Below are positions 19,701 to 62,940 of a stretch of 64,000 nt of DNA, piece after piece. Source of the stretch: Ashinkailepas kermadecensis (Eukaryota > Arthropoda > Thecostraca > Neolepadidae); NCBI GenBank assembly GCA_034440615.1, contig JAOTOM010004875.1, forward strand, positions 224,501 to 288,500, given 5' to 3'. The notes below the pieces were generated by a model, which saw only the letters and a program-made list of their open reading frames with translations, searched no databases and was not told the DNA's origin. The first letter of the stretch is position 1. The number at the start of each line of letters is the position of its first letter. The position numbers and the translations under genes were made by a program.

Positions 19701-19872
19701 AAAATTTCAACATCAATGCAAGTACATGAGAAAACAGCAAAACATACAGAACTATCGCCATGTACACCAGCCGCCGAACAGCCACCAGTCGTAAACGCGC
19801 AGGCACACCACCATCAATCGTTTCGCACCTCTCCACCCCCGTCAACCCCGCCCCCTAGGACAGCCGCCGCAG

Positions 19873-21384
19873 ATGTCTGGGTATCCGGAGGTCCGGACCG
19901 ACCCCGGCCAGCCGAGCCCGGCCGCGGCCGGCGCTAAAGACAACATTGTCGAGCCTTCCCCTGGCCTGGTCCGACCTGCCGAATCGGTCCCGGTCGGACG
20001 TCGGCGACGGCTGAGGAGGCGAGGATGCCGGGGCGGACAACAGGTGAAGAGAAGAGTCAGGCAACGAGCAATAACATCAGCTCAAAGGAGTGCTGCTTTG
20101 CAGACTACTCCCGGCACTGGGGAAGCCCCCCATCGTGTAGAGTGCCGCCCAACTCCCTCAGCTGTACAAAGCACAGCGAGTGCAATGCCACCTCCACGGC
20201 GAACATTCAGCCGGTGTCTCCTGCAGCCTCCGCGATTGACGCTCCGTCAAACGCAGAACGTCGGTAAAGTCCAGCAACAGAGACGTTGTCGTCGACTCAA
20301 AATCGGCCACGGGAATGTCAGCTCGCTGACCAAACACCTAGACGACATCAACCAACTGTTATCGACTGAGCAATTTGACATATTCTGTGCCACCGAGACA
20401 CTGCTCTCCGTAGATATGGACGACAGCACCCTCATCTTACCTGGTTTCAACATCAGGCGGAGGGAAGTGTCGCACGGGCGTGGAGTCGCTATTATCTCCC
20501 GTAATCGCCTCACTGTCGAGCCACTGTGGGTGCCTACACCGAACTCATCTCTAGAGTCACTGTGGATCACTGTGACTGATCTAACAACAGTTGTCATTGG
20601 AGCTGTCTACCGTTCCCCAAATAGTGCAGTGACACCGGCCAATGAGGAGCTACATGATCAGCTGGCTAACGTCTTAAGCCTTGGCAAGCCCATCTTTCTT
20701 CTCGGTGACACCAACTTTGACGTGCTGCAGCCCGACAAACCAGGTGTGCGGGCTTATCTGCGTACGCTTTGCGATCTGTCCCTCAGCCAGCTGATAACCA
20801 ACGTCACACACCCACCACGGCGAGAAGGAGACAGCCCGAGTCTCCTCGATCATCTCATTACAAATCGATCTGACTTGACCACAGAAGTTCGAGTCATTCA
20901 CACAGATTTCAGCGACCACGACGTCATTGCTGCATCTATCACAATTGACAGGCGTCGCCCTCAGCCCACCGTCATTACCATCCGATCGACAAGACGCTTA
21001 GATCAAAATGCTTTGTGCCTAGATCTGCTGTTGGCCGACTGGTCCGCCGTTTATCAAGCGACCACCACCTCGGACAAATGGGACGCATGGATGGCTGCAT
21101 GGCAGCCAATAATCGACCATCACATGCCCCTTCGTCAAATCAAGCTGAAGCACCGGTCGCCGCCTTGGTTGCAGCATGATGACGTTCATACAGCAAGGGC
21201 AGCACTGAAACAGCCGCGCGAGCACAGAGATGCAGCACGAAGCGAAGAAGCCCAGCGGAATTACCGTGAGCACAAGGGCGCACTCCGAACGGCTCAACAT
21301 CACGCATGCGCAGAATACTTTCATACTGCACACCGTGGAAGAACATCCGCAAGTTCATTATTGCCTCCAGCAAGTCAACGATAG
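19873..21384 (+). pseudogene. LINE ORF2, N-terminal part: apurinic-type endonuclease
   Basis: 503 codons open. From about residue 140 there is an exonuclease-endonuclease-phosphatase fold: GHGNVSSL (Asn), CATETLL (catalytic Glu), VIGAVYRSP (Tyr), LLGDTNFD (Asp-Asn) and FSDHDVI (Asp-His). All catalytic positions are kept. The N-terminal 130 residues are low-complexity and may be partly 5' UTR. The frame is lost at about 21340, where the sequence continues in another frame. Confidence 0.85.
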
Positions 21385-23064
21385 AAGAGCCTGGCACAAC
21401 CAATCAACCGCCTGATTGGCATGAACGGCTCAACCGGCATTTTACCGGCGTCGGTGCCGCGGTAGCTGCTGATTTAGCGATGGCGCCGCCCGGAGAGCCC
21501 CTCTGGCCAAGACCCCCACGTGTCTGTAGCGGCGCATTCACACCGTATCCTGTGACGATGCCAGAGCTGTCAAAAGCGTTGCAGCGCATGGGTGGCTCAC
21601 GAGCGTCGGGAGCTGATGGCATCACCATCCAGATGCTCAGGATGACGTTTAGTGTGGTCGGCCCGCACCTGTTAAACATTATCAACTCATGCATCACAAG
21701 CTGTGAACTGCCACCGTCATGGAAAACGGCGATGGTACCCTGCACAAAAGTGGTAATGCAAACGACCCACACAACTACAGGCCAATGTCGATATTGCCAG
21801 TGGTATCTGCGAGCGTGTCGTGTGCACACAACTGATAGACTATCTGACTAGTCATCATCTACTGTGCCCAGAACAGTACGGTTTCCGGCCCGGCCTGTCT
21901 ACCGAGATGGCTCTGCTAGACACGGTCATCCACGCTACCCTCAAAATCGACCAAGGCGAGATCACTCCACTGGTTACAGCTGACACCTCAAAGGCGTTCG
22001 ACAGCGTGGAGCATAGTCGCCTCATGGACAAGCTCGGATGGTACGGCGTCAACTCCGAATGGTTCCGAGCGTGGCTTCAGGGCCGTTCGCAAACAGTGAA
22101 GGGTTCTAGCCCTCTGTCGGTAACACATGGTGTGGTGCAGGGCTCGATCTTGGGCCCGGTTATGTTCCTAATATTCTCCAATGACCTCCCACAACATATC
22201 CCACACGGCAAGATTGTTATGTATGCCGATGATGTCCAGTTCCTCGACTCCGGGAAGCGAAACGAAATCACAGCCATTAGCCAACGATTGAATGAATCAC
22301 TGTCAGTCGCCTTTAACTGGTTCATCCAGAATCGACTAAAAGTCAATCCCTCCAAAACTGAGATGGTTGTTCTCCAATCTTCTAGACATACACCTGTGAA
22401 ATTATCTGTTCATCTGGGCCAGTTATAAATAGTACCCACGAAGTCTGTGAAATTACTTGGCGTGAAAATTGACTCACACCTGTCCTGGGATGTGCATGTA
22501 TCTACTGTTGTGCGTCTGTGTAACTGCATACTCATTGGACTCGCTAGACTGCGTCATAAGTTTTCTCACATTACGAGACGGGTGCTAATTGAGGCACTCG
22601 TATTCCCCCACATAAGATACTGTGTGTCTGTCTGGGGAAGCTGTAGCAGAGCCCAGAAACGACGCATTCAAAAATGCATCAACTTTGGTGCAAGGATTGT
22701 CGCCGGCTTGCACTTTCGGGATCAAGTGTCGCCCACGTTGAAAGAACTAGGATGGCTCAAATTCGAGGATTTCATATCCGAGGCAGATGCTCACTCAGTT
22801 TTCAAAATTATGAACGAGTTCACTGGCCCAGAACTCATTCGCGGTCAACTAAACTGTCGCTCAACTGTGTCGCAACGGAGCACCAGGGCCACGGCTAACG
22901 GTGAACTGCAGGTACCACGATGCCGCACAGAATTCGCGCGCCGCTCCTTCATACCGAGAGCTTGCCGGACGTGGAACAATCTGCCTCCAGATGTGAGGAA
23001 CTCAGGTGGCTACAATGTTTTCAAACGGAGACTTTCGGCCATGCTGCGCATGTCCGGGCTCTAA
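21306..23064 (+). pseudogene. LINE ORF2, reverse transcriptase and C-terminal part (frameshifted)
   Basis: RT continues at 21306-21790 (FTPYPVTMPELSKALQRMGG, SGADGITIQML, LPPSWKTAMV), then shifts frame to 21820-22428 (QYGFRPGLSTEMAL, HGVVQGSILGPVMFLI, and the catalytic MYADDVQFL). An in-frame TAA at 22426-22428 interrupts it. The same frame goes on at 22447-23064 with LGVKIDSHLSWDVHV, the LKELGWLKFEDFI segment and the C-terminus. The active-site YADD is intact. Confidence 0.87.
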
Positions 23065-25747: not shown

Positions 25748-26079
25748 GTGACCAGCGGAGTCTACCTCTGGTGACCTGAAGTCATCACATCCTACGAGGA
25801 CATCACTTCCGACGACGAGTACGCCTATTCTGCAGGACGAGCAAGTCTATACGTCTACGTCAACAACTCCGTAAGCCCGGAAAATCCCAAAAATCCTTCC
25901 AACAATACCTGTGCCAAATTTTGACCGCTGCATAGTATTGGAGTGTTCGTGTGTTCACCGTGTATTGCGCGTGTGAACTGTACGTGGATTAGGAAACTAA
26001 TTAGTCGCACACCTCTTCGCAAAACCAGTGTGAATCGAAATTGATATTTTATTGAGAAATTACATAACATAAAGGCGTC

Positions 26080-26742
26080 ATGACCGAATTATCGCTAGAC
26101 CGTCTCACTGACGGTTTTAATCAAATTAGGATGAAAATGAGGGCTCAAGGTTTAAGCAACAATATTAAACAATATACAGGAGACAGCCATAACAAGTTAG
26201 TGGAGTGGATTAAACAATTGGATCGCATTAGTTTTAGTATGGATAATGAACAGATGATAATTATTTGTTTAAAAACACTTGGTGGACCCGCGGCTGAGTT
26301 TCTCCAACGTATACTATCGCTACAGGCAAACCTAACGTGGGCAGAAATTAAACAAGTAATGAGAGAACGCTATTCTGACCTCTGGGACCAAAAGAACGCA
26401 CAAGAAACCTTGAGAAGGGTAAAGCAGCACCGCTCAGAATCGGTTCAGAATTACTCGGAGCGCATAATTTCACTGGCAAAAGAAGCTTATTCGGATTTTA
26501 ATAGTCCTGCTACCCAGGAAATTTTGATAGATGTGTTCAACAAAGGAGTACAAAGCCATCAGCTAGCAGAAAAATTATATAGACATTCCTTTCAGACCCT
26601 CGAGGAGGCAATACAATTCGCTGTGCATGAACAGCAACTTCTTAAGACATTTTTATTATGTCGGGGATCACTGAAAACAGATAAGGAACCCATGGAAGTT
26701 GATGTGGTACAAAGCGGAAATGAACGATTGGATAGGATATAA
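26080..26742 (+). pseudogene. LTR element gag (capsid-like), truncated by a stop
   Basis: 220 residues from ATG, mostly helical, with the retrotransposon gag pattern: WIKQLDRISFSMDNEQMIII, LGGPAAEFLQRIL, WAEIKQVMRERY and LRRVKQHRSESVQNYSERI. It ends at TAA 26740-26742. The downstream continuation carries a CCHC zinc knuckle near 27005-27060 whose frame is cut by a TGA between its His and last Cys. Confidence 0.85.
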
Positions 26743-27248
26743 AAACTGGTAGTATCCCTAGGGCAGACTGTATCAAAATTGGCAGCTCAAAAATTATCCC
26801 CCCGAAACCACAAACCCAGCCTCAATCAGGACAACGAGTATTCCTCCCATCGTATCCACCATACCCGCGACCACCAAGACCGTACGTTCCCCGACCTAAC
26901 CATGGACCTCCAATGACGCCCCCCCTTTCGGCCCCACGATGTGGAAACCTCGACCGCCAAATCCGCCCGGACCGTCGTTCCAATGGACCCCGGATGGCCG
27001 ACCAATCTGCTGTAAGTGTGCCAAGGTAGGTCATATTGGATGACAGTGTCGTTCTTGCCCGAATCCCCCTAGACAGTCGGAAAACTGAGGCGCTCCATTG
27101 CGAATGACCATCTCAATGGAGCTGACTTTAAGCAAAAAGCGACCCTACAGAGGAAGGAAAGAAAAACATCCGTAGGAAACGAGACCCGAAGAAACAGAAA
27201 TCGAACTACAAAAATGTACAGCATGTTCGTATTAAACCCAATACTCCC

Positions 27249-27590
27249 ATGTGTTGGATCAAAATCGGAAATCAGAAAGTTTATACGCTCGTTGATACTG
27301 GAACAGATATTTCGCTAATCTCAAAGAAACTTTTTGACAAAATCGCAGAAAAACAGACACTCAGATTTTCAGAAGATCAAAAAGATCGTATCCCACTCAT
27401 TTCAGCAAGCGGACATCGTTTGAAAAAATATTGGTGTAGGAACATTTAGAGTCGAGATGAGTAAGTTTAGAAAACCATTCAGCTTTCAAATTGTAGCAGG
27501 TCCGACACAACAATGCATGTTAGGAAATGATTTCTTAACTGAGTTTGGATAAAAATTGGACTTTGAGAAAAAAGCCTTGTGTATTGAAGG
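27249..27590 (+). pseudogene. LTR element aspartic protease remnant
   Basis: VYTLVDTGTDISLISKKLF has the retropepsin DTG catalytic motif. The frame stops at 27447-27449 and continues in another frame (FQIVAGPTQQCMLGNDFL), again with a stop near 27550. Confidence 0.82.
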
Positions 27591-27685
27591 AAATATGATT
27601 CCTCTTCGCCCACAGCGAACGATTAGCGATTAGCGAGTTCCCTGTCAGAATAAAGGGACGCATCTATATCCCGGCCAACACGGTC

Positions 27686-29518
27686 GTGGAGTGTCCAGCG
27701 GCTGTGAACAGGGCACAATTGGTAAATAAAACGTGCTATGTGCGGTCTCTGGATAACATGCCATTAATTTCCGAGGAGCCAGGCTTATTCATAGCCGAGG
27801 TAGTGGCTAAACCAGGTCGCCATAAGCGTCTACCGGTAAGAATTATAAATACGTCCACCAGAGATTTCACAATGTATAATAACCAAGCGATCACCTACGC
27901 TGAGAGGATAGATGACACAGATCTAGAACACTTTGTTGACATGCCACAAGACCTTGACTTAGCCCCGCCGACTATCTCACCCACTGACCCAGTTGAGCAA
28001 GTGCAGCTGGCTCATCTGACAGACGCTGACAAGGACGAACTCGAACAGCTGTTACGAGCCAACGCTGACCTGTTTGCTGCGACTGACGCCGACCTCGGTA
28101 CAACTGACCTCGTTGAGATGGAGATCGAGACTGCCGACCACGCACCCATCCGTCAGCCGCCGTACAAAACACCGTTTAGCCAGCGAAAGTATGTGGAAGA
28201 GCAGATACGTATCATGTTAAAGGCTGGTATAATAGAGGAATCCGACAGTCCGTGGGCCGCACCCATAGTCATAGTGCGAAAAAAGGATGGTACCAATCGA
28301 TTCGCAGTCGACTATCGAAGATTAAATAACGTGACGAAGAAAAACAGTTGTCCCCTTCCACTGATAGAAGATATTCTCGCGTCCTTCGGTGGAGCAAACT
28401 TCTTCTCATCGTTAGATTTAAAATCAGGGTACTGGCAAATCCCAATGGCGGAAAATAGCATACCCAAAACCGCCTTCACGTGTTTCTTGGGCCTATGGAA
28501 CTTTAGGAAAATGCCCTTTGGAATTTGCAACGCTCCGAGTTTCTTTGTACAATTAATGACGAAGGTGCTGTCTGGAATTCAGAATCAATTTGCAACAGCA
28601 TACATCAACGACATAATAATATATTCAAAAACATTTAAGGAACACCTAGCTCATTTGGAGAAAGTCTTTCGTCGCCTGCGAAAAGCATGGTTGAAGTTGA
28701 AACTATCAAAGTGTGAGTTTTTAAAAGAGGAAGTACAATACTTAGGACATGTGGTATCAGCCTCTGGCATCAAACCAAACCCGGAGAAAGTAGAAGCTAT
28801 ACAGCACATGGCAGCACCGACTACCGTGAAAGGAGTCCGCTCATTTATCGGCATGTGTTCTTATTACCGACGATTTATCCATAAATTTAGCCAAATTGCC
28901 ACGCCGCTGATTAACTTAACGAAGAAACATGCCATATTCATTTGGACAGATGATTGCGAAAACGCTTTTACAACATTAAAACAAAAGCTAGCTTCTGCAC
29001 CAGTACTGGCTTACCCAGATGTCACTAAAGACTATAAATTGTATACGGACGCCTCACTGAGAGCGGTGGGAGCGGTATTAGTACAAGAACATAACGGAGA
29101 AGAAAGGGTAATACAATACTTGTCTAAGCAACTTAATGAAACACAACAAAAATGGCCAATTGTGCAATTGGAAGCATACGCGTGTGTTTACGCCGTGCAA
29201 AAATTACGCCAATATTTGCTTGGATCGAAATTCACCATTCTGACCGATCATCGACCACTTACATTTTTAAATCTGTCGGAAATGAAAAATCCCATGCTGC
29301 AGAGATGGGCTATCATGCTTTCAGAGCACAACTGCGAAATTATTTACATTAAAGGACCAAAAAACGTTGTCGCAGATCATCTCAGCCGAATGAGTGAAAT
29401 CGAACAAAAAGTAAACGTTATTGATTCCGACCATGTTCCCATGGGCGACTTCAGGGGTACCGAATTCCGAAAACCGGAGGAAGAGTTAAGCCGAGAAGAG
29501 AAATTCAAGGATTTATAA
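27686..29518 (+). pseudogene. LTR element reverse transcriptase and RNase H (active-site mutant)
   Basis: 610 codons open. RT: IIEESDSPWAAPIVIVRKKD, FAVDYRRLNNVTKKNSCPLP, FFSSLDLKSGYWQIP, FRKMPFGICNAPSFF, then AYINDIIIYSKT. The last is normally Y-x-D-D; here the first catalytic Asp codon is AAC at 28607-28609, giving YIND. RNase H follows: LYTDASLRAVGAVLVQ, LEAYACVYAVQKLRQYL and TDHRPL, with the acidic residues kept. Ends in TAA at 29516-29518, before the connection to integrase. Confidence 0.93.
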
Positions 29519-29599
29519 ATGAAGTGGGAAAATATTGAAAAGCTCCTGAAAACAGACGAGGAAATATAAAAAATTCGGAACATAATAAACGATGAGAAT

Positions 29600-30540
29600 C
29601 ACATGGATTATAAAGATGTAGTCCTACACTATATGGAGTTAGACAAACTCATTTATAAAATTAGCGAAGGACCACGCTGTGGACCCTGGACTACAATTAT
29701 GCGTGCCAAAATGTCTGAGGCAAGCATTACTCAAAGAATTGCATGAAGGCTTCTTTGCCGGACATATGGGATTGACAAAAACGTACGAGAAACTCAAATT
29801 TAGATATTATTGGAATGGTATGTGGCGAGATACAGTAGCATATATAAAAGCCTGCGTACTATGCACAGGGCGACGAGCTAAGGCAGCTCCAGCTCCGATG
29901 CAGGACATGCCTGTGCCACATTACCCGTTTTAAATGATAGGGATTGATACTTGTGGACCATATCCAGAAACGGAAAACGGTAACAGATATGTCATTACCA
30001 TTGTTGATCACTTCTCTTCGTGGCCGGAAAGCTTCTGCATAGCGAGAAAAGACGCTAAAACAGTTGCCAAAATTCTTATGGAGGAAATTATCCCACGACA
30101 CTCTTGCCCACGAATAATCCTGTCCGACCGAGGCACGGAATTTGTAAATGTGGTAATAGAGGAACTAGAAACCTGCCTGAATATACGTCACATCACTACC
30201 AGCCCTTATAGGCCACAAATCAATGGAAAACCCGAAAGGTACCACAGGGTGCAAAACGACATATTGGCAAAATAAATTAACCTGAACCAAAACGACTGGG
30301 ACACCAAAATACCCGCCACCTTAGCTGCCTACCGAACGGCAAACATTGGAAGTTCAGGAACGATATCACCCTTCTTCTCGCTATATGGTCGAGACCCAGT
30401 CCTCCCCCTAGATAATTTGTTACAACCCAAAATTGAATATTACGGAGAAGACTATGTACCAAAAATGCTAGCTAATTTGCATGAAGCCTATAGTCACGTG
30501 AAATCGCATATTGTTGACAGCCATGAACACAATTAAGTTT
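29600..30540 (+). pseudogene. LTR element integrase (interrupted)
   Basis: The zinc-binding part is at 29679-29933 (HEGFFAGHMGLTKTYEKL, CVLCTGRRA). An in-frame TAA at 29931-29933 follows. The DDE core is at 29934-30275: DTCGPYP (first Asp), ILSDRGTEF (second Asp), NGKPERYHR (Glu). Further in-frame TAAs occur at 30273-30275 and near 30533. A frameshift separates this region from the RNase H. Confidence 0.88.
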
Positions 30541-30944
30541 ATTCAGATAGGAAAGCAAAACCACGCAGTTTTAAAATAGGAGACCCAGTTTATTATTATG
30601 ATACCACCGTACAACCTGGCAACTCCCCCAAATTCGCGACACCTTGGAAACCATATTTTATAATAATTAAACATACGAGCGCTGTTAATTACGTTATCCG
30701 AAATCAAGTTACTGGAAAAACTCGCCTGGTACACGTACAAAAACTACGTTTAGCTGACCCTTCTACCGCATGGGAACCCACGAAAGATATAGACGAGCCA
30801 ATAAATCTGAAGTATATCAATAAACGGTCCAAACCCGACCGCACCACTCCCGAACGTATCCAGCCACCAAGGTTAGCTAAACGCGCCAAAGCCGAATCGG
30901 GCCAGGAGCCATGTGGCTACGAGGTCCTGGACACGGACTGACCA
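30541..30944 (+). pseudogene. LTR element integrase C-terminal segment
   Basis: An open frame follows the last integrase stop: KIGDPVYYYDTTV, KFATPWKPYFI and LVHVQKLRLADP, the GPY/F-like C-terminal module of Ty3/gypsy integrases. It ends at a TGA just before the ATG of the next ORF. No chromodomain is attached here, unlike in classical chromoviruses. Confidence 0.7.
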
Positions 30945-31529
30945 ATGGGGTCAGCAGATGATGACATCGAAATGCCGACATGGGCCCCAGACATATCTGG
31001 CACAAGGCCAGAACCGCCGGTCGAGACGGACCGACGGGAAGCTGAATCATCATCCACCCAGCTAGCCCAATCAGGTCAGCCCTCAGGTACCAGTGAGTCT
31101 GAGGATGACTTGCCGCTAGCCGAGTTTGCCCAGCGTATTAAAAAGCGGCAATTGCCCACGTCTAGCGAATCTGAAAATGAAAAGTCGCAGCCACGCGCAA
31201 CGAAATGCACTAAAATTCAGGGTAGTGATTCTGAAGATAATTTACCCTTAGCGGAATTAGCCAGTCGTTTGAGAGAATCAGCAGAGAGCCCACCGAGTGT
31301 TGCGCCAGAAAAACGACCATTAGAATTAACTTCAGATGATGATTGCCCTCCAGAAAAATTGCAAATATATGATGATACGTCATCCACCGAGTATGATACT
31401 GACGTAGAACAAATAGCGGTCAAACCAGATAGAACGAGGGAATTTGCCGCCTTCGTAAAGAACCAGAACGCCATGATGTTGGCACAAATGAAATCGCAGA
31501 TGGAAACGTTTAAGTCGATGTTGGAATAG
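30945..31529 (+). CDS. LTR element accessory ORF X: acidic protein, unknown
   Basis: 194 residues, intact. Starts MGSADDDIEMPTWAPD three bases after the pol stop. It carries the same motif twice: SESEDDLPLAEFAQRIKKR (about 50-68) and SDSEDNLPLAELASRLRES (about 94-112). These read as serine/acidic clusters followed by a short amphipathic helix. The C-terminus (FAAFVKNQNAMMLAQMKSQM) could be a coiled coil. No signal peptide or membrane segment is present, so it is not an envelope-type protein. I do not recognise a family. Confidence 0.7.
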   Translation: MGSADDDIEMPTWAPDISGTRPEPPVETDRREAESSSTQLAQSGQPSGTSESEDDLPLAEFAQRIKKRQLPTSSESENEKSQPRATKCTKIQGSDSEDNLPLAELASRLRESAESPPSVAPEKRPLELTSDDDCPPEKLQIYDDTSSTEYDTDVEQIAVKPDRTREFAAFVKNQNAMMLAQMKSQMETFKSMLE

Positions 31530-39167: not shown

Positions 39168-41400
<2,233 letters not shown>

Positions 41401-45715: not shown

Positions 45716-46870
45716 ATGGGGAAAAACGAAAGAAGGACATCGACCCCAGCTCACCACCGGACTCCGAGACGGAATGTCCACCATTAGCTACACCTGACGA
45801 CCATCGCACGACCCCGGACTCGGCCCCTGATGCTCCCCCACTTGATACAACCATTGATGACCCGCGCCGGACTATCCCTTTGGATGACGTCATGGAAGCC
45901 ATCTGTGCCTCACCGACCCCTGCTCGTCCCAAGACCACGACCTCGTCTCGCAATCAGAACCAGACCATCACTCTTCACTCCGCTGACCATGCTCGAACCA
46001 GACCACGCCCTCTCCACCTGAACCCATCCAAACCATCATCGAACTCCACCTCGACAGTGCTGGCTCTTACATAGTTGTCAAGCCTGTCGAGGAATCCGTT
46101 TCCTTCCGCCGTATTAACGTTTTCTGGCTGACTAAACAACTCCTTCCCATCTGCTCCCTAGCCAATCCCGACATTGAAGCCCCTGCGAACGGAACCTTTG
46201 TCATTAAAACCCAATCCTGAGCCCAAACCAAAGCCCTCCTCCGCACCACCACATTTTGTGGAAAATCCGTCACCATCACTCTCCATTCCAACCGCAACAC
46301 CACCAAGGGCACCGTCTTCGCGCCGGAGCTCCGATTCATGTCTGAGGAAGATATCCATGCGGAGCTCAGGCCGGAGGGGGTGACCCACGTCCGACGCATC
46401 ACTTCCTTTAAAGACGGCCAGAAACGTGATACGAGCCTCCTTGTCATTACCTTCAATTCTACCAATCTTCCCAAGACCCTCCTCGCCGGCTACATCCGAT
46501 ACCAAGTCCGTGTCTTTATTCCCAATCCTCTCCGCTGTTTTAATTGCCAGCGCTTCGGCTATGGCAGCAAAACATGCCGCTAACCAGCCCGCTGCTCCAA
46601 GTGTGGCGAACCACCTCATCCTGACTCCACCTGCTCCAAACCGGCCCACTGCCTCAACTGCAATACACCTGACCACCTGATCACATCACCACTCTGTCCA
46701 GTCTGGCGCAAAGAGAAAGAGGTTTGCGCCGTCAAGGCCACAACCGGGGTATCATACCCCCAGGCCCGACGGTCTGTCGAGGCCACCTCCCCCTCGACCA
46801 AAGCTTACGCCCAGGCTGTCACCGTCGCTCCCTCCACCCCTCGCGGCAACACCACTTCTACTTCTATTCA
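45716..46870 (+). pseudogene. LINE ORF1 (gag-like, CCHC zinc knuckles), frameshifted
   Basis: Pieces in several frames: a Pro/Thr-rich N-terminus, LRPEGVTHVRRITSFKDGQK, then VFIPNPLRCFNCQRFGYGSK followed by TC. The first knuckle C-x2-C-x4-H-x4-C has Tyr in place of His. Further Cys clusters follow (CSKCGEPPHPDSTC, then CLNCNTPDHL). This is the nucleic-acid-binding protein of I/Jockey-type LINEs. Confidence 0.8.
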
Positions 46871-46877
46871 AACTGAC

Positions 46878-47980
46878 ATGATTCCCGGATTAGCTCCACT
46901 AAAAAAACTTGCGCCATTGACCACACCGACACAAACCACCCTGGCTCCCAACACACAAACCACTCCGGCTCCCAATAAGCGGACCACTCCAGGGAGAAGT
47001 GACAGGCCTCGCAGTTATTCGGCTGCGGGACCAAATTCTCGTTCCCCGTCAGCGGGCCGCCGATCGAGCCCTGCGCGTCCAGCGCCGGCCGGCGCCCACG
47101 TGACCAAACCGACTCCCAGCCGGCGGGCATCCCCCGCGGCAGTGACCGGCCGCCGTGACCTTTCCAAGGCCACTGGTCGGCCGGACGGATCGGCTGGGTC
47201 CACCTCGGCCGTCCGCACCCAACCCACATGCCCGCCTGAGCTGCAATCGTGGCTGCGCCATGCACCGAAAGGTGCCGACAAGCATTTATTTTTATCTCTC
47301 ATGTCCGTATTTTTACAGTGGAATTGCCGCAGCTTAATATCGAAATGGGCAGAAATGAAAGTGTTTTTCAGTATTCTCACACCTATTCTCATCGCACTCC
47401 AAGAAACATGGTTTTTGCCTACTGATCCATATAACTTCAATCTTTTTATTTATTCGCTGTATCGTCACGACGAGGTCCGTGGACCACATCGCAGTGGCGG
47501 TACAGCCCTTTACATTAACAATGATTACACACATACACAAATTACACTTAATTCACCATTACAAGCCGTAGCTTGTACTTTACTTTTTCATGGCCGAAAT
47601 ATAGATGTATGCTCACTATACATTCCACCATCTACAGACAACACAAAACATTTTGACACAATTAGAAAACCTCATAACACATTTCAAAAACCCGTTCATT
47701 ATACTTGGCGATTTTAACGCCCATAGTCCAGCGTGGAATAAAAAACATACACAACCAGACACTCGTGGACGCATTATTCAACACATTTTAGACCGACACA
47801 ATTTAGTATTACTTAACACTGGAGAGCCAACTTTTTTTCACCTCGGACACAACACAGAAACTGCAATAGATTTAACAATTTGTTTCCGGCTTTGGCCAAC
47901 GATCTTGATTGGACGGTCGACACCGACATTCGTGATAGTGATCACTATCCAATTAAATTAACACCAACATTTTCAACTGC
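46878..47980 (+). pseudogene. LINE ORF2, endonuclease domain
   Basis: Starts in a Pro/Thr-rich linker, then FLQWNCRSLISKWAEMKVF (Asn), LIALQETWF (catalytic Glu), VCSLYIPP, and after a frameshift near 47660 FIILGDFNAHSPAWN (Asp-Asn), GEPTFFH and RDSDHYPI (Asp-His). The apurinic-type catalytic set is complete. Confidence 0.88.
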
Positions 47981-50000
47981 GGCTGTTAGCACACCCAGTT
48001 TTATCCCGCGCTGGAAAACTTCGAAAGCAGACTGGATCAAGTTTCAAGAACTCTCATATGTACAATACAACCCAGATCTTTCCCCTGTGCAAAACATGAA
48101 CTTAATCACAAATACACTTCTCGAAGCAGCATCTCTGGCAATTCCAATTACAAAACCTTTTACAAAACGAACGCCAGTACCTTGGTGGAGTCCAAAAATA
48201 TCACATGCCATCGCGGTAAGGAAAAGAGCATTTAGGAAATATTTAAGACACCCTGATCAACAAAATTTAATCATTCGTAACCATGAACGAGCTAGGACAC
48301 GCCGCCTCATTCGCGACGCCAGACGTCGTTCGTGGTCAGAATATATAAAACAACTCACTTTTCGAACACCCTTAAGCCAAATCTGGCTATTAATCCGCCG
48401 ACCGTCCGGACGCACCCCATTCAAATCACTCCCGGCCCTCAAAATCCAAAATATCACCATTACAGACCCAAAAGCAATAGTAAACACAATAGCGGACACC
48501 CTGGTTCAAAATAGCTCGGATAACAAATACAGACCTGAATTCTTACAAAATGCACAATACACCTTTCACACCGATTTAGCACAATTCAATTCTAACAACA
48601 CTGAAACATATAATGCTCCATTTCAACTTTCGGAACTGGAGACTGCCATTTCCTCCGCCGGCAATACTTCTGTAGGGCCAGACAATTTACATTATTATTT
48701 TTTTCAGACATTTACCCGACCACACGAAACATTCCATCTTACGAATATTTAATTCATTATGGTCAGGCAATATTTTTCCCGAATCTTGGAAAGAAGCCAC
48801 CATCATTCCAATACCAAAACCCGGCAAAGATCACAGCGACCCCAACAATTTTCGACCCATTGCTCTCACCAGTTGTCTTGGAAAACGTTTTGAACGTATT
48901 ATTATAAAAAGGCTGATCTGGCACCTGGAAACAAATTCTCTTCTATCTCCCTTTCAATGCGGTTTTCGGCGAGGACGCAGCCCCATAGATCACCTTATTC
49001 GAATAGAGACAGACATCCGCCTAGGCTACACAAAATATGAACACACTGTAGCAGTATTTTCAGACATAAGCAAAGCATACGATATGGTTTTCAAACCCAC
49101 ATTACTCTTCAAAATTCAGCAACTCGGCATAAAGGCACATTATTTAGTAGGTTTTTATTATCTGGTTCCCGTCCATTCCATATCAGGTGCCGGTCAGCCA
49201 TCTCCGATCCACATTTTCTTCAGAACGGATTACCACAGGGACGTTGTATTTCACCAGTATTATTTAACATCATCATTAATGATCTTTTCGATGACTGCCT
49301 GCCTGCCAATCTATCATATTCACTATTTGCAGACGATAGTGCGATTTGGTGCTCCGGCAAAAATTATGAACATTGTTTAATTCGATTGCAAAACGCACTT
49401 GACCGAGTACACGAATAGTCCCTAAAGTATGGTTTCTTTTTTCGGCCCCAAAATCTGCAGCACTGATATTTAACAAATCGACACCCTGCCCGAACCCGGA
49501 CACACCGCTTCACCTCGGGTAACAACAGCATACCATTTGTAATTTCATTTAAATTCCATAGGTATTATTTTTGATCGTAGGCTATCCATGTATCAACACA
49601 TCAAGCACGTTCAGACCAAATGTTTTCACCGATTTAAGTTATTTCGCTGTATTACTTCTTCCTCATTCGGAGCTGATCGTCATACGCTTTTACATCTGTA
49701 CAAATCCTTAGTTCTTCCCATCATAGAATATGGGTCGCTAGTCTACGCTGGTGCCAGTACCTCCGCTTTGAAACTTTTGGACACCATACAAAATAAATTT
49801 ATCCGTTTAGCACTTGGTGCAATGACAACTTCTCTCATCAACTCTCTACAAACAGAAGCAGGAATTCCACCATTAGAACTCCGAAGAATGGAACAAACAC
49901 TTAGATATGCCGCAAAAATTCAATTTAAAGAGCACCATCCTGTTACGGCCTCCGTCAGTCAAACAAAATGTAAACAGAAGACAACAAACATAAAGACTAA
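47880..50000 (+). pseudogene. LINE ORF2, reverse transcriptase domain (frameshifted)
   Basis: 47880-48752 holds the pre-RT region (RRSWSEYIKQLTFRTPLSQI, ISSAGNTSVGPDNLHYYFF). The next frame gives IPIPKPGKDHSDPNNFRPIA, FQCGFRRGRSPIDHLIR and AVFSDISKAYD. The catalytic LFADDSAIW is at about 49323-49349 (FADD at 49326-49337). The thumb region is at 49588-50004 (LYKSLVLPIIEYGSLVYAGA). At least four frame changes or stops. Confidence 0.87.
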
Positions 50001-50384
50001 CTAAAGGATAAAGCTATATTTTCGGATTACCGTATGAAGTTCGATGCACGTTTTGACCTGACGAGACAGTCACCAAAGAATTAGACACAATACAACGTGA
50101 AACAAGGTGGTGAGATCAGCAAAATAAAACCGCACGTACCCATTGAAACGCATACAATTGAGCAGTCATTAAATCATTAGGGCGAATTACAATGGATCTC
50201 AATAAATTACAGCTTGTATAATTACATTTTCCCGGTACGGCGGCTTTATATCTATGTGTTGTGGTCAAGCGAAGTCAAGGCCTTTTCACCACTCGATCAC
50301 GTTTGGCACATCGACAGCTTTCAACCCATAATACGATTCTAGTATATCACAAATCTGTGGAGGAAAAAAGAACCAACAACCACC

Positions 50385-50628
50385 AAAACAAAAAAAACAA
50401 AACAAAAAAAAATAAAATAAAAAAGGAAAAAAAAAAAAAAAAAAACCTTTTTGGTAGAAAAAAATGGTTGGGGTAGGAAGGGGGGGGGAAAAAAAAAAAA
50501 AAAAAAAGGTTTTTTTTAAAAAAAAAAAAATTGGCCGGCCCTTTAAAAAACACAAAAAAAAAAAAAAAAAAAAACCCAAAAAAAAAAAAAAAAAAATATA
50601 TACCCCCCCCCAAAAAAAAAACAACAAA
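50385..50628. other. Homopolymer block inside the LINE, possible assembly artefact
   Basis: Long runs of A broken by short G, T, C blocks (runs such as GGGGGGGGG, TTTTTTTT, CCCCCCCCC and a lone GGCCGGCC). It does not resemble the rest of the element and interrupts it between RT and RNase H. Either a rearranged insertion tail or a poor consensus. Confidence 0.6.
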
Positions 50629-50719
50629 AACTTAACGCATCAAAACACTTTCTACACAACTCCAATACAATATTCCACGTATTACTGCTCTTCCTCCACC
50701 AACTACACCATCGTAGCAG

Positions 50720-51310
50720 ATGACTGAACGACATATTTTTTATCTCACCACCACCACTCCAAAATCACACCTTTGTCCAGAATACGTCAAACAAAAATTC
50801 CACCAGTTTCGTTCCCGTTATCGCCACGTTCCTTTTGTTTTCACCGACGGATCTAAAGACGCAAATTACACAGGAAATGCCATTGTTTCCGGTACATACA
50901 CAAAACAACATCGCTTGCCAAACGGGACCTCCATTTTCATCGCCGAATTGCACGCCATTCTCACTGCCCTTCGCTATGTCCGCAACCGTTCAATTTGTCA
51001 CCCCATGCGCCATATCGTCATTTGTTCCGACTCAAATTCTGTTCTTCAATCTCTTTCTTCACTTTCCTTTTCGCACCATTGCCATGTTTCCATTTATGAC
51101 ACACTTGAAACACTTCATCTGATGGGCATGAAGGTCCGTTTCCTGTGGGTGCCCAGTCACTGTGTCATCCCAGGAAACGAGGAAGCAGATCATTTCGCCA
51201 AACAATCATTACAATTACCACACATCACAGAAATCCCACCACATTTTGACGCCATCAAATCAACAATACGACAAAACATTCGGCATTTTTCGGAACCAAC
51301 AATGGACTGA
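50720..51310 (+). pseudogene. LINE ORF2, RNase H domain
   Basis: 196 codons open. PFVFTDGSKDANYTGNAIV (first Asp), FIAELHAILTALRYV (Glu), ICSDSNSVLQSL (Asp) and LWVPSHCVIPGNEEADHFAK (His, Asp). All four acidic positions of RNase H are kept. Frame changes at about 51295 into the C-terminal tail (PSCPSCNTHLTVSHILLHC). Confidence 0.92.
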
Positions 51311-59072: not shown

Positions 59073-62000
59073 GTGAAGTGTGCACGCACCACCCACTCCA
59101 CTCACCACTCGGCCGCTGCCCCCACCCAGCCACACGACCCGGGCGACGGCCGATCTCGTCTGTTGTCTTTCGTCTGGCGTTAATTTTGAGGTGCATTGCT
59201 GGCTCGTTTGTGGTAGGGGATTTCTTTTTTGATCATGTGATATACTGTGCGCTCATTTCCGGCCATGTATTTAGCGGCTTGTACGGCTCTTCCGATATGT
59301 CGTTGCATCCGCACATATGGGGAAGATATCCCAAACGTTGTGTCGGAACATGTCCTGTTAGATGGTGAGTTGGGACTGCCCATTCAGAGGTGTATCGGAT
59401 TGCAGGTCAGCCTGAGACTGATCCTGGTGAGCGGGCGAAGCCGAGACTTCCTGTTCGACGAAAGCGACACGGCCGGCGACATAGCCCAGTTGGTGTTTGA
59501 CACCTGGCCAGAAGGTGGGAGGACGGCGCTGGCGGCAGTCACAAACTGCGCGTGGCCGTGCCGGGGCACAGCCGCCCGTGCGACACTCCCACGCTCTAAT
59601 ATCATGTCAAGCAACTCGTGGGCTGCGCTTATCCTGTCCAATGGGAACAGTGCCTGCAGTCATTGCTCACAATGATGTAACTCAATGAGGGAGCATCAGT
59701 GATTCAAATAGAGAAATCAGTTGATGACAATTTGTATGTCGATTTGTCCTAGCATGACCATCATAGTCTCATTTTGTCGTGACTAAGAAAATTACACGGA
59801 CAAAATACGCGATAAATATTTAGTTTCAGCTATTCAAGGTATTGATTACATAGCCACTATAAGGAGCCATTACAGACGCTGGACGAGCGACGACGAGAGG
59901 CTGTTTATATGGTGGCATTAGCGGCGCTGGGCGAGTAACGACAAGACGCTGGTTATAAGGCGACATTAGCAGCGCTGGACAAGTGACAAGAGGCTGGTTA
60001 TAGGGCGCCATTAGCGGCACTGGACGATATGCGGCAATAGGCGCCATTGGGGCCATTGTGGGCGCTGGACTAGCGAGGACAAGAGGCTGGATATAGGACG
60101 TGATACTGTGCGCTGGACGAGCGAAGACAAGAGGCTGGTTATAGGGTGTTATTGGGGCACTGGACTAGCGGGAATGAGAGGCTTCATTACATAACTTCAT
60201 TCGGGGCGCTGGGTTAGCGAGTGACTGGTTGTAGGGCGCCATTAAGGTCGCTAAACGAGGGAGGACAAGAGGCTGTATATAGGACGTGATTCTGTGCGCT
60301 GGACGAGCGAGGACAAGAGACTTCATTGCATAACTTCATTCGGGGCGCTGGGTTAGCGAGTGACTGGTTGTAGGGCGCCATTAAGGTCGCTAAACGAGCG
60401 GGGACAAGAGGCTGGATATAGGACGTCATACTGTGCGCTGGACTAGCGAGGACAAGATGCTGGATATAGGACGTCATACTGTGCGCTGGACGAGCGAGGA
60501 CAAGGGGCGAACTGAGGTGCTCCATATCACTAGCTTCAGAATCTGTCACCATGCCACTGGCAGAAAACGTGTTAACGTAAGCTTGTGAATCCACCACAGC
60601 TGCACTTTCTGGACAGCTCGTGTAAACATACACGGTGTTCTGTCCAGTGTGCGCGGAAGTGTAGGTGTTCCAGGAATCGTATGTACATCATCCGGAATGC
60701 GATACTGCATTGGTATTTCGTATACATCTGCAATGTCTGCTAGGTAAGTGTTATTTCGATAGAAATACCTCCAGTTTTGGCATCAGCACATTGAAAACCA
60801 GACGAAATTTGCTCTACTCGTGTCCAAATCAGGCTCCTCTATCGAATTGGTTCATGTACTTCAAACTTGAATGCGTCATGCGGAATGTTCTAAATGGCAT
60901 GGGTGGCACGGTGTGTCAATGTCCTTTCCGTCCACCTGCGCTCGGCTCAGCTCATGCCCCATAACCGCCACCTACGCTGGCCAACCGCCGGGCTTCGGGA
61001 CTCGAAAGTCACCTGACATGACAACCACGTGCCCGGATGCCGACTGACGTGACAAGGCAATCTTGCGTGGGTTGCAAGTGTAGCCGCAAAAAAACTATCA
61101 TTTCGATAAACCGTTTTCCTATTCTTTGATTTTGTTTTATGTCGACAAAGATCATGGACACTTCATATGAAATATTACGATTAAGGCTGATGGAAAATCA
61201 AATTTTAGAATTAAGTCTAGTTCTGACTGAGAAAGACAAGCTTTGAAAACTCTGTAATAATTTTGTCAAGGTTTCCAAAACCTGGTGGCCGGCCCGGTTT
61301 TCGTTGTTGCTACGAAGTGTGAACATTTCCGGTGGGTTTATGCACAATAGCATACTCGGCTATATCTCGCCCTCGGTCGTCATGATGCCCATGCATTGCT
61401 TACTACTTCATCAGGTCTTTGTGGGGCGGTTCGATTGGGCCACGCACCACGAAGAGAAACGTGAGGTCCTCACTGTAAATTGCGTCATCAGTGCAGTGCA
61501 TCATTATATGGGCACCATGATGCACTGCAGTCTGCGGCAGTCAGTGTGTCCAAATTACAAGTATCGGGCTGAAAGTGACGCACAACAATAAAAATATTTG
61601 CATCATATGTCGGTACTTTCTCATTTATTTTCATCTCTCACTGGCTGATTCTATATATTGTATATATTTCCTGATATTTGGTATCTAGAGATTTATGATG
61701 CATAAAATGCAGCTGACGTGAATTTCCTTCAATTGCAGGTTTGCATGATGCTGGTATAGACCAAACATGCCTTAAATCATCTAATTTGGTTGTCATGTGC
61801 GCGTATGCATTCGATGCTTGTTGTTTACATCTGTGACAACAAAACTCGAAGAGTCTTATTCAGACATTAGACATCAGATTCCCACCCGACGCCCAACTGA
61901 AGACGAATGTGTTGCACTGGCGTTACCTCCTTGTCGACACTGACCGACTGTCGACAGAGTGGGCGCAGGAGGCGGTCAGTCAGGCGAGCGTGCTGCGCCT

Positions 62001-62122
62001 CATCTACCAGGGCCGCTTCCTGCACAGCAACGTGACGCTGGCGGCGCTGGGTCTGGCGCGCGGCAAGACCACCGTCATGCACTTGGTGCCACGCGAGAGT
62101 CTGCCGGAACCCAACTCACAGG
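59028..62122 (+). CDS. UBL3: UBL3, membrane-anchored ubiquitin-fold protein (3 of 4 exons)
   Basis: UBL3 (MUB family) is a small ubiquitin-like protein prenylated at a C-terminal CAAX box and attached to membranes; in mammals it marks proteins for extracellular vesicles (family knowledge). Exons 59028-59072, 59406-59514 and 61958-62122 join in phases 0, 1 and 1 to give 106 residues. They read MSTTAGRSRQPPADK, then VSLRLILVSGRSRDFLFDES and DTAGDIAQLVFDTWPE, then VLRLIYQGRFLHSNVTLAAL and GKTTVMHLVPRESLPEPNSQ. Vertebrate UBL3 has 117 residues, so only about 10-17, including the CAAX cysteines, are missing and must lie beyond 64000 or unrecognised after 62122. The last donor is part of a minisatellite. 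Confidence 0.94.
59406..59514 (+). CDS. UBL3: UBL3 exon 2
   Basis: After ggattgcag: VSLRLILVSG, first strand of the ubiquitin fold, then FLFDESDTAGDIAQLVFDTW. Donor GAA G/GTGGGA. Confidence 0.94.
59826..60510 (+). repeat. Minisatellite in UBL3 intron 2, about 47-bp unit
   Basis: About fourteen units of GCGCTGGACGAGCGAGGACA then AGAGGCTGGATATAGGACGT and CATACTGT, with higher-order variation (60190-60370 is a duplicated block). Minus-strand open frames (SMTSYIQ repeats) are by-products. Confidence 0.9.
60511..61957. other. Rest of UBL3 intron 2
   Basis: No supported gene. Open frames at 60665-60964 and 61304-61591 show no recognisable domain. Confidence 0.4.
61958..62122 (+). CDS. UBL3: UBL3 exon 3
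   Basis: After ctgtcgacag: EWAQEAVSQASVLRLIYQGR and on to LPEPNSQG, donor CAG G/GTGAGA. The open frame extends 90 nt upstream of the acceptor, but that part has no match in the family. The last 28 exon bases (62095-62122) are the first unit of the intron repeat. Confidence 0.93.
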
Positions 62123-62880
62123 GTGAGAGTCTGACCCGGCCCAGCTCACAGGGTTAGTCGCCCTGGCCCAGCTCACAGGGTTAGAGTCTGCCCTGGCCCA
62201 GCTCACAGGGTGAGAGTCTGCCCCGACCCAGATCACAGGGTGAGAGTCTGCCCTGGCCCACCTCACAGGGTTAGAGTCTGCCCTGGCCCACCTCACAGGG
62301 TTAGGGTCTGCCCTGGCCCGGCTCACATGGTTAGAGTCTGCCGGGCAGACTCTGCCCCCAGTCCAGCTCGCAGGGTTAGAGTCTGTCCCCAGTCCAGCTC
62401 GCAGTTTGAGAGGTTGCCTCCAGCCCAGCTCACAGGTGAGAGTTTTCCCCAGAACAGCTCACAGGTTTGGAGTTTGCCCCGGCCCAGCTCACAAGGTGAG
62501 CGGTCTTCCCCAGCCCAGCTCACAGGGTTAGTTTGTCCTGGCTCAGCTCACAAGGTGAGCGTCTGCCCCCAGTCAAGTTCGCAATTTGAGAGGTTGCCCC
62601 CAGCTCAGCTCACAGGTGAGGGTTTGCCCCAGAGCAGCTCGCAGGGCGAGTGTCGGCCCCGACTCGGCTCATGGGACAAGATTCTCTCCCTCCAGCCCAG
62701 CTCACAGTGTAAGGGTCTGCTCCCGGCCCAGCTCACAGGGTGAGAGTTTGCCCTCAGCGTGGCTCGCAAGGTGAGTGTCTGCCGCCAATTGAGCTCACAG
62801 GGTAAGAGTCTCTCCCCTCCTAGCCCAGCTCATAGCGTAAGAGCCTGCCTCAGTCCAGTTCACGCTGTGAGGATCTGCCC
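62095..62880 (+). repeat. 30-bp minisatellite starting inside UBL3 exon 3 and its 5' splice site
   Basis: The unit GAGAGTCTGCCCTGGCCCAG then CTCACAGGGT is 30 bp. Unit 1 (62095-62124) is the 3' end of the coding exon plus the donor GT; unit 2 is 62125-62154. Some 25 units follow with increasing divergence, most keeping CAGCTCACAGGGTGAG or CAGGGTTAG, that is, the splice donor. Confidence 0.95.
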
Positions 62881-62940
62881 CCCCCCCCCCCCCCCCCCGC
62901 CCACCCCACCCCACCCCACCCCACCCCACCCCACACAGAC
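62878..62940. repeat. C-run and (CCCCA)n microsatellite
   Basis: About 20 C, then about seven CCCCA units, at the far end of the UBL3 donor minisatellite. The minus strand can form G-quadruplexes. Confidence 0.93.

Follow-up and report, generated by a model that had tools for sequence, protein, structure and literature searches.

A minisatellite spanning the exon 3 splice donor of UBL3 in the barnacle Ashinkailepas kermadecensis, probably a by-product of repeat turnover

Where an intron opens with a tandem array whose first unit is the end of the preceding exon, it has to be asked whether the exon or the intron gave rise to the repeat, and whether the copied splice sites serve the gene or are tolerated by it. 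UBL3 of Ashinkailepas kermadecensis raises this question within a stretch of 64,000 nucleotides, referred to here as the window (contig C4378:224501-288500 of a 908 Mb assembly). The 30-bp minisatellite that a sequence-only reading had described at this gene is real; it runs from 62095 to 62880 in 26 units, the first consisting of the last 28 nucleotides of exon 3 and the donor GT. Tandem Repeats Finder (TRF) divides it into two segments, 62095-62342 (30 bp x 8.4, 86% matches) and 62347-62882 (31 bp x 17.4, 65% matches), and wrap-around alignment resolves 26 units and a 12-nt stub, with unit lengths of 27-35 nt except for unit 9, which has 15 nt.

Exon 3 matches Pfam PF13881 (E 1.2e-13) and the ubiquitin-like 3 structures 1wgh (E 3.5e-23) and 2gow (E 6.9e-23) in PDB. 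At 100% identity it occurs once in the assembly; a second UBL3 gene, a paralogue with 82% DNA identity in exon 3, lies on contig C3593. Exon 4, located beyond the window, codes for DDGERSKAGSHRCCAPSCTLS followed by a stop codon. Since the CAGG that ends exon 3 and the AT that begins exon 4 together yield the Asp that P0112 and P0120 also carry there, the true donor is placed at 62122/62123 (Table 1); exon 4 thus fits the first donor, which is presumably the one used. Another array, at 59858-60508, was considered as a boundary array and rejected, as it begins about 340 nt 3' of the exon 2 donor. Directly 3' of the UBL3 stop codon there is a short tandem repeat of about 21 nt (L009, about 765-855).

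Table 1. Features of UBL3 and CCT2 discussed in the text, in window positions unless stated otherwise.
Feature	Position	Strand	Basis or remark
UBL3 exon 2	59406-59514	+	tblastn with P0112; ends read from sequence
UBL3 exon 3, ends CAGG, phase 1	61958-62122	+	Pfam and PDB matches; ends read from sequence; exon 4 sets the donor
True donor GT of UBL3 intron 3 (2557 nt)	62123-62124	+	CAGG + AT of exon 4 = SQ-D
Array unit 1, founder: 28 exon nt + donor GT	62095-62124	+	
Intronic units 2-26 and stub, 20 decoy donors of positive score	62125-62880	+	
Second donor (+30), weak GTTAGT, score 2.2	62153-62154	+	would add GESLTRPSSQ
In-frame TAG reached from any donor past +30	62155-62157	+	
Strongest decoy donor AAG/GTGAGT	62771-62772	+	score 8.3 vs 4.5 for true donor
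UBL3 exon 4	L009:680-744 (= 64680-64744, beyond window)	+	
CCT2 (T-complex protein 1 beta) exon, donor edge founds array	12147-12350	+	ends read from sequence
CCT2 donor-spanning array, 30 bp x 12.5, unit 1 = 10 exon nt + donor	12341-12693	+	

The likeness of exon edge and array is not a matter of chance, as 25 of the 30 positions of unit 1 agree with the consensus derived from units 2-8 and the best match elsewhere in the window, on either strand, reaches 19 of 30. Resemblance to the exon unit also declines with distance from it (Spearman -0.58, p 0.003, n 24, unit 9 excluded). To polarize the differences, the paralogue on C3593 served as outgroup; its exon 3 ends without an array of this kind, and none is present at its matching donor. 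Among the 30 positions compared, five differ only in the paralogue, two only in the exon and three only in the array. Both exon-specific changes fall on codon position 3, where the array keeps the base of the paralogue, and the three array-specific changes fall on codon positions 1 and 2 and alter E to W and N to S, a distribution which indicates that the exon founded the array. The five positions at which the exon unit differs from units 2-8 argue against any recent copying of the exon. These comparisons support the descent of the array from this exon, its copies having apparently drifted without coding constraint.

The position of the intron was compared in 120 UBL3 homologues listed of 460 found. 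Among these, 100 carry PEPxSQ followed by G, 17 carry PEPxSQ followed by D, which is the joint expected here after splicing, and three are without the motif. The tails after PEPxSQ-G were varied in the 40 that were inspected, as is expected of genomic reading frames that cross a donor; mature vertebrate UBL3 has G at this place, so not every G need be read-through, and for the individual homologue read-through is only presumed. No repeat-like pattern was found in the 40 residues after the motif in any of the 117 listed homologues with the motif; these lack the array but indicate the same place for the intron. The position of intron 3 therefore looks old, and the direction from exon to intron proposed in the sequence-only reading, which had also called for a look at the donor in related species, is borne out alike by the paralogue, the old intron position and the gradient with distance.

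The closest known kind of structure is the "mirage" of amphioxus. According to two papers, mirages are minisatellites across exon-intron boundaries, 5' or 3', in Adh3, BflGb6, BflGb9, TnC and PGBD5, which carry copied AG/GT signals and reportedly leave splicing undisturbed; the Adh3 mirage is unstable in length, and two globin haplotypes have six and three units (PMC3087553, PMC3902484). The UBL3 array matches this type in anatomy, its unit crossing the boundary with 28 exon nucleotides and the donor, and in its repeated splice signals. The mirages described there were all found in cephalochordates, whereas the host here is an arthropod, but taxon lies outside the structural definition; furthermore, the present arrays were counted in genomic DNA over 119 sampled boundaries, and splicing and instability were assayed in amphioxus. 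A search of the open-access literature returned no junction-spanning minisatellite from an arthropod, and as far as found there, earlier ones come from individual genes of amphioxus. Tandem genomic duplication that gives rise to new introns likewise copies in tandem a segment with splice-site-like AGGT (PMC3443670). This origin was rejected for UBL3, since homologues that lack the array point to an intron at the same place; the intron was already present and no new one was made.

We consider it probable that a tandem duplication across the exon edge founded a mirage-type minisatellite spanning the junction, most likely as a by-product of repeat turnover and not as a device. A duplication reaching from within exon 3 into intron 3 would have placed the exon edge and its donor inside the intron, and unequal exchange or slippage would later have raised the intronic copies to about 25. 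These would then have drifted free of coding constraint, the exon-side copy being kept intact by selection. Exon definition, starting at the upstream acceptor, would favour the closest donor, so that the spliceosome probably still uses the exon-side one and the decoys would be removed along with the intron. The same process has probably acted at many donors and acceptors of this barnacle. For the UBL3 array, splicing at the first donor is presumed, as are neutrality and instability.

Other boundaries are arrayed as well. The exon 3 acceptor of the UBL3 paralogue lies within a 54-bp x 9.5 array whose unit contains the first nine exon bases, so that two of the ten boundaries of the two UBL3 genes are spanned (the exon 4 acceptor was judged by eye). 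Within the window, one of 13 boundaries of CCT2 is spanned; the exon ends in CTGGGCATCA/GTACGT, and those ten bases with the donor start the array. The window further holds a minisatellite of 35 bp x 39.7 that shows a higher-order unit of 68 bp (829-2210), a run of 177 perfect AT units between a GA and an AG repeat (39171-39862), and frames that by eye resemble reverse transcriptases of non-LTR and LTR retroelements (19795-23064, 26068-31529 and 46221-51310). Elsewhere in the assembly, C223 has two COX1 matches and C1390 a third that contains TAA, which may reflect either a duplicated mitochondrial contig or nuclear copies. The mitochondrial COX1 agrees at 99% over 446 residues with the stalked barnacle Leucolepas longa and at 91-93% with the three barnacle matches that follow; this places the DNA in Neolepadidae, and lamprey or amphioxus as its source was rejected.

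To count such boundaries independently of repeats, exons were picked as Ras-family matches, of which 70 and 20 out of 137 were used. Arrays with conserved exon sequence span 10 of the 119 boundaries, or nine junctions if a pair of paralogous copies is counted once, which suggests repeated origin; arrays that cross splice junctions are common in this barnacle genome. In the main set (70 exons, 86 internal boundaries), automatic junction finding placed 57 junctions among the 86 boundaries, and the edge statistics therefore take the ends of HMM matches as boundaries. Reading by hand of 11 candidate boundaries gave seven clear cases, namely a Rab4-like donor (exon 35/38 residues as in Rab4B), both donor and acceptor of a Rab14-like intron (next exon 41/42 aligned residues as in Rab14) and the acceptors of L058, L060, L061 and L054, the last with an inferred junction and a 73% array. 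The remaining four were set aside: the L056 donor includes about 3-10 exon nucleotides and is no clear case, at the L057 donor the HMM match overshoots, L047 combines a short 2.3-copy repeat and an overshoot, and at the L057 acceptor the array ends at AG with next to no exon. The held-out set (20 exons, 33 boundaries) added three clear spanning arrays, at the L063 donor and the L064 and L069 acceptors; its flanks of about 260 nt mean that long units can be missed. The Rab14-like intron on L050 is arrayed at its donor with 77 bp x 3.1 (991-1247) and at its acceptor with 64 bp x 4.1 (1731-1994).

These numbers bear on a rival reading with no link to splicing, to which we give about even chances. 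Introns of this genome would simply be rich in minisatellites founded by random duplications, those crossing a junction would persist owing to the one junction left intact, and exons would only stop arrays from growing further. Arrays of period at least 7 indeed cover 17% of the loci surveyed, which overlap in part, and their coverage (8.5% over the final 30 exon nt, 18-24% over the initial 60 intron nt and 17-25% deeper) shows no excess near boundaries in these loci; moreover, the exon share of the unit differs widely among the cases read by hand, as it would with random breakpoints. Against this stands the position of the exon-side edges of arrays with a period of at least 10, with 23 in the 10.3 kb within 60 nt of a boundary and 48 in the 92.3 kb beyond, a density ratio of 4.3 (bootstrap over 24 loci 2.7-6.9; binomial p 2.4e-7). 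Likewise, nine arrays reach 8-60 nt into an exon, including those at the L056 and L057 donors, whereas 2000 circular shifts, a null model without exon barriers, gave 2.15 on average and never more than 8. In the held-out set, nine edges lie near boundaries (2.3 per kb) and four at 60-260 nt (0.6 per kb). Far edges are not in excess near boundaries (1 in 5.2 kb vs 57 in 92.3 kb), which is weak as a control, since there is hardly room for a far edge so close to a boundary.

One pair of loci complicates the reading of these arrays as neutral by-products. L064 (contig C4527) and L069 (contig C4113) are paralogous copies of one gene, named Rab23-like by eye, and share a 67-bp acceptor-spanning array that is alike at 237 of 256 positions. 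The array differs far less between the copies than nearby neutral sites do, which may count against a neutral by-product: 13 of 25 fourfold sites differ, and the introns that follow are not alignable, with 110 of 226 columns alike. Beside the array the exons agree at 56/60, a figure that drops to 33/44 at their far end. The region looks like a gene-conversion tract, which is a possible explanation; constraint or shared descent could also lie behind the likeness.

It could also be supposed that the array is an alternative-splicing device, in which the choice of donor tunes the tail or the level of UBL3, donor 2 adding ten residues and later donors yielding truncated or decay-prone messages. Scored with a 5' splice-site matrix, the true donor AGG/GTGAGA reaches 4.5, and besides it 20 GT sites of the array score above 0 and nine at least 4.5; such sites number 0.34 on average, and at most 3, in other 806-nt stretches of the window (n 76). 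The earlier estimate of some two dozen decoy donors comes down to 20 sites with a positive score. In some units AG directly precedes GTGAG, for instance CACAG/GTGAGA at 62436. Recursive splice sites, or ratchet points, serve the stepwise removal of introns; such units resemble them in joining AG to GTGAG, but the UBL3 decoys differ in being predicted donors copied from the exon edge. U1 pairing at the decoy at 62771 is stronger than at the true donor.

The predicted products speak against a device. The ten-residue insertion foreseen for donor 2 is in frame, but the site is weak and it is the only decoy that keeps the frame; donors farther on would include the TAG of unit 3, with a predicted protein lacking the cysteine-rich CTLS tail. 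As this codon stops all isoforms but one, and as arrays at other loci often have units whose length is not divisible by three (77, 64, 44, 62, 67), a device is not indicated, and the repeat is absent from the paralogue donor and was not seen in the 117 homologues. We regard a regulatory role as improbable.

That the array was intronic first and overwrote the exon edge by conversion would explain the bases common to both, but is very improbable, as the exon retains the conserved LPEPNSQ of UBL3, the array-specific changes break this peptide, and at two silent sites the exon is derived and the array is not. An assembly artefact is scarcely credible either, for although tandem arrays are hard to assemble and the copy number may be off, the units differ among themselves, exon 3 is single-copy beside its 82% paralogue, and the same anatomy recurs at unrelated loci.

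Beyond the by-product origin that we favour, it can be speculated, tentatively and with more doubt than confidence, that splice junctions are preferred birth places of minisatellites in this barnacle lineage through mutation tied to transcription or splicing, that thousands of them are arrayed, and that the arrays contribute to the sliding of introns, to new isoforms and to conversion among paralogous genes. If true, the spliceosome must choose its sites by position and exon definition and not by site strength. Such junctions present a natural experiment, in which many near-identical donors or acceptors compete in a row, and offer starting material for modelling how introns slide and exons are born.
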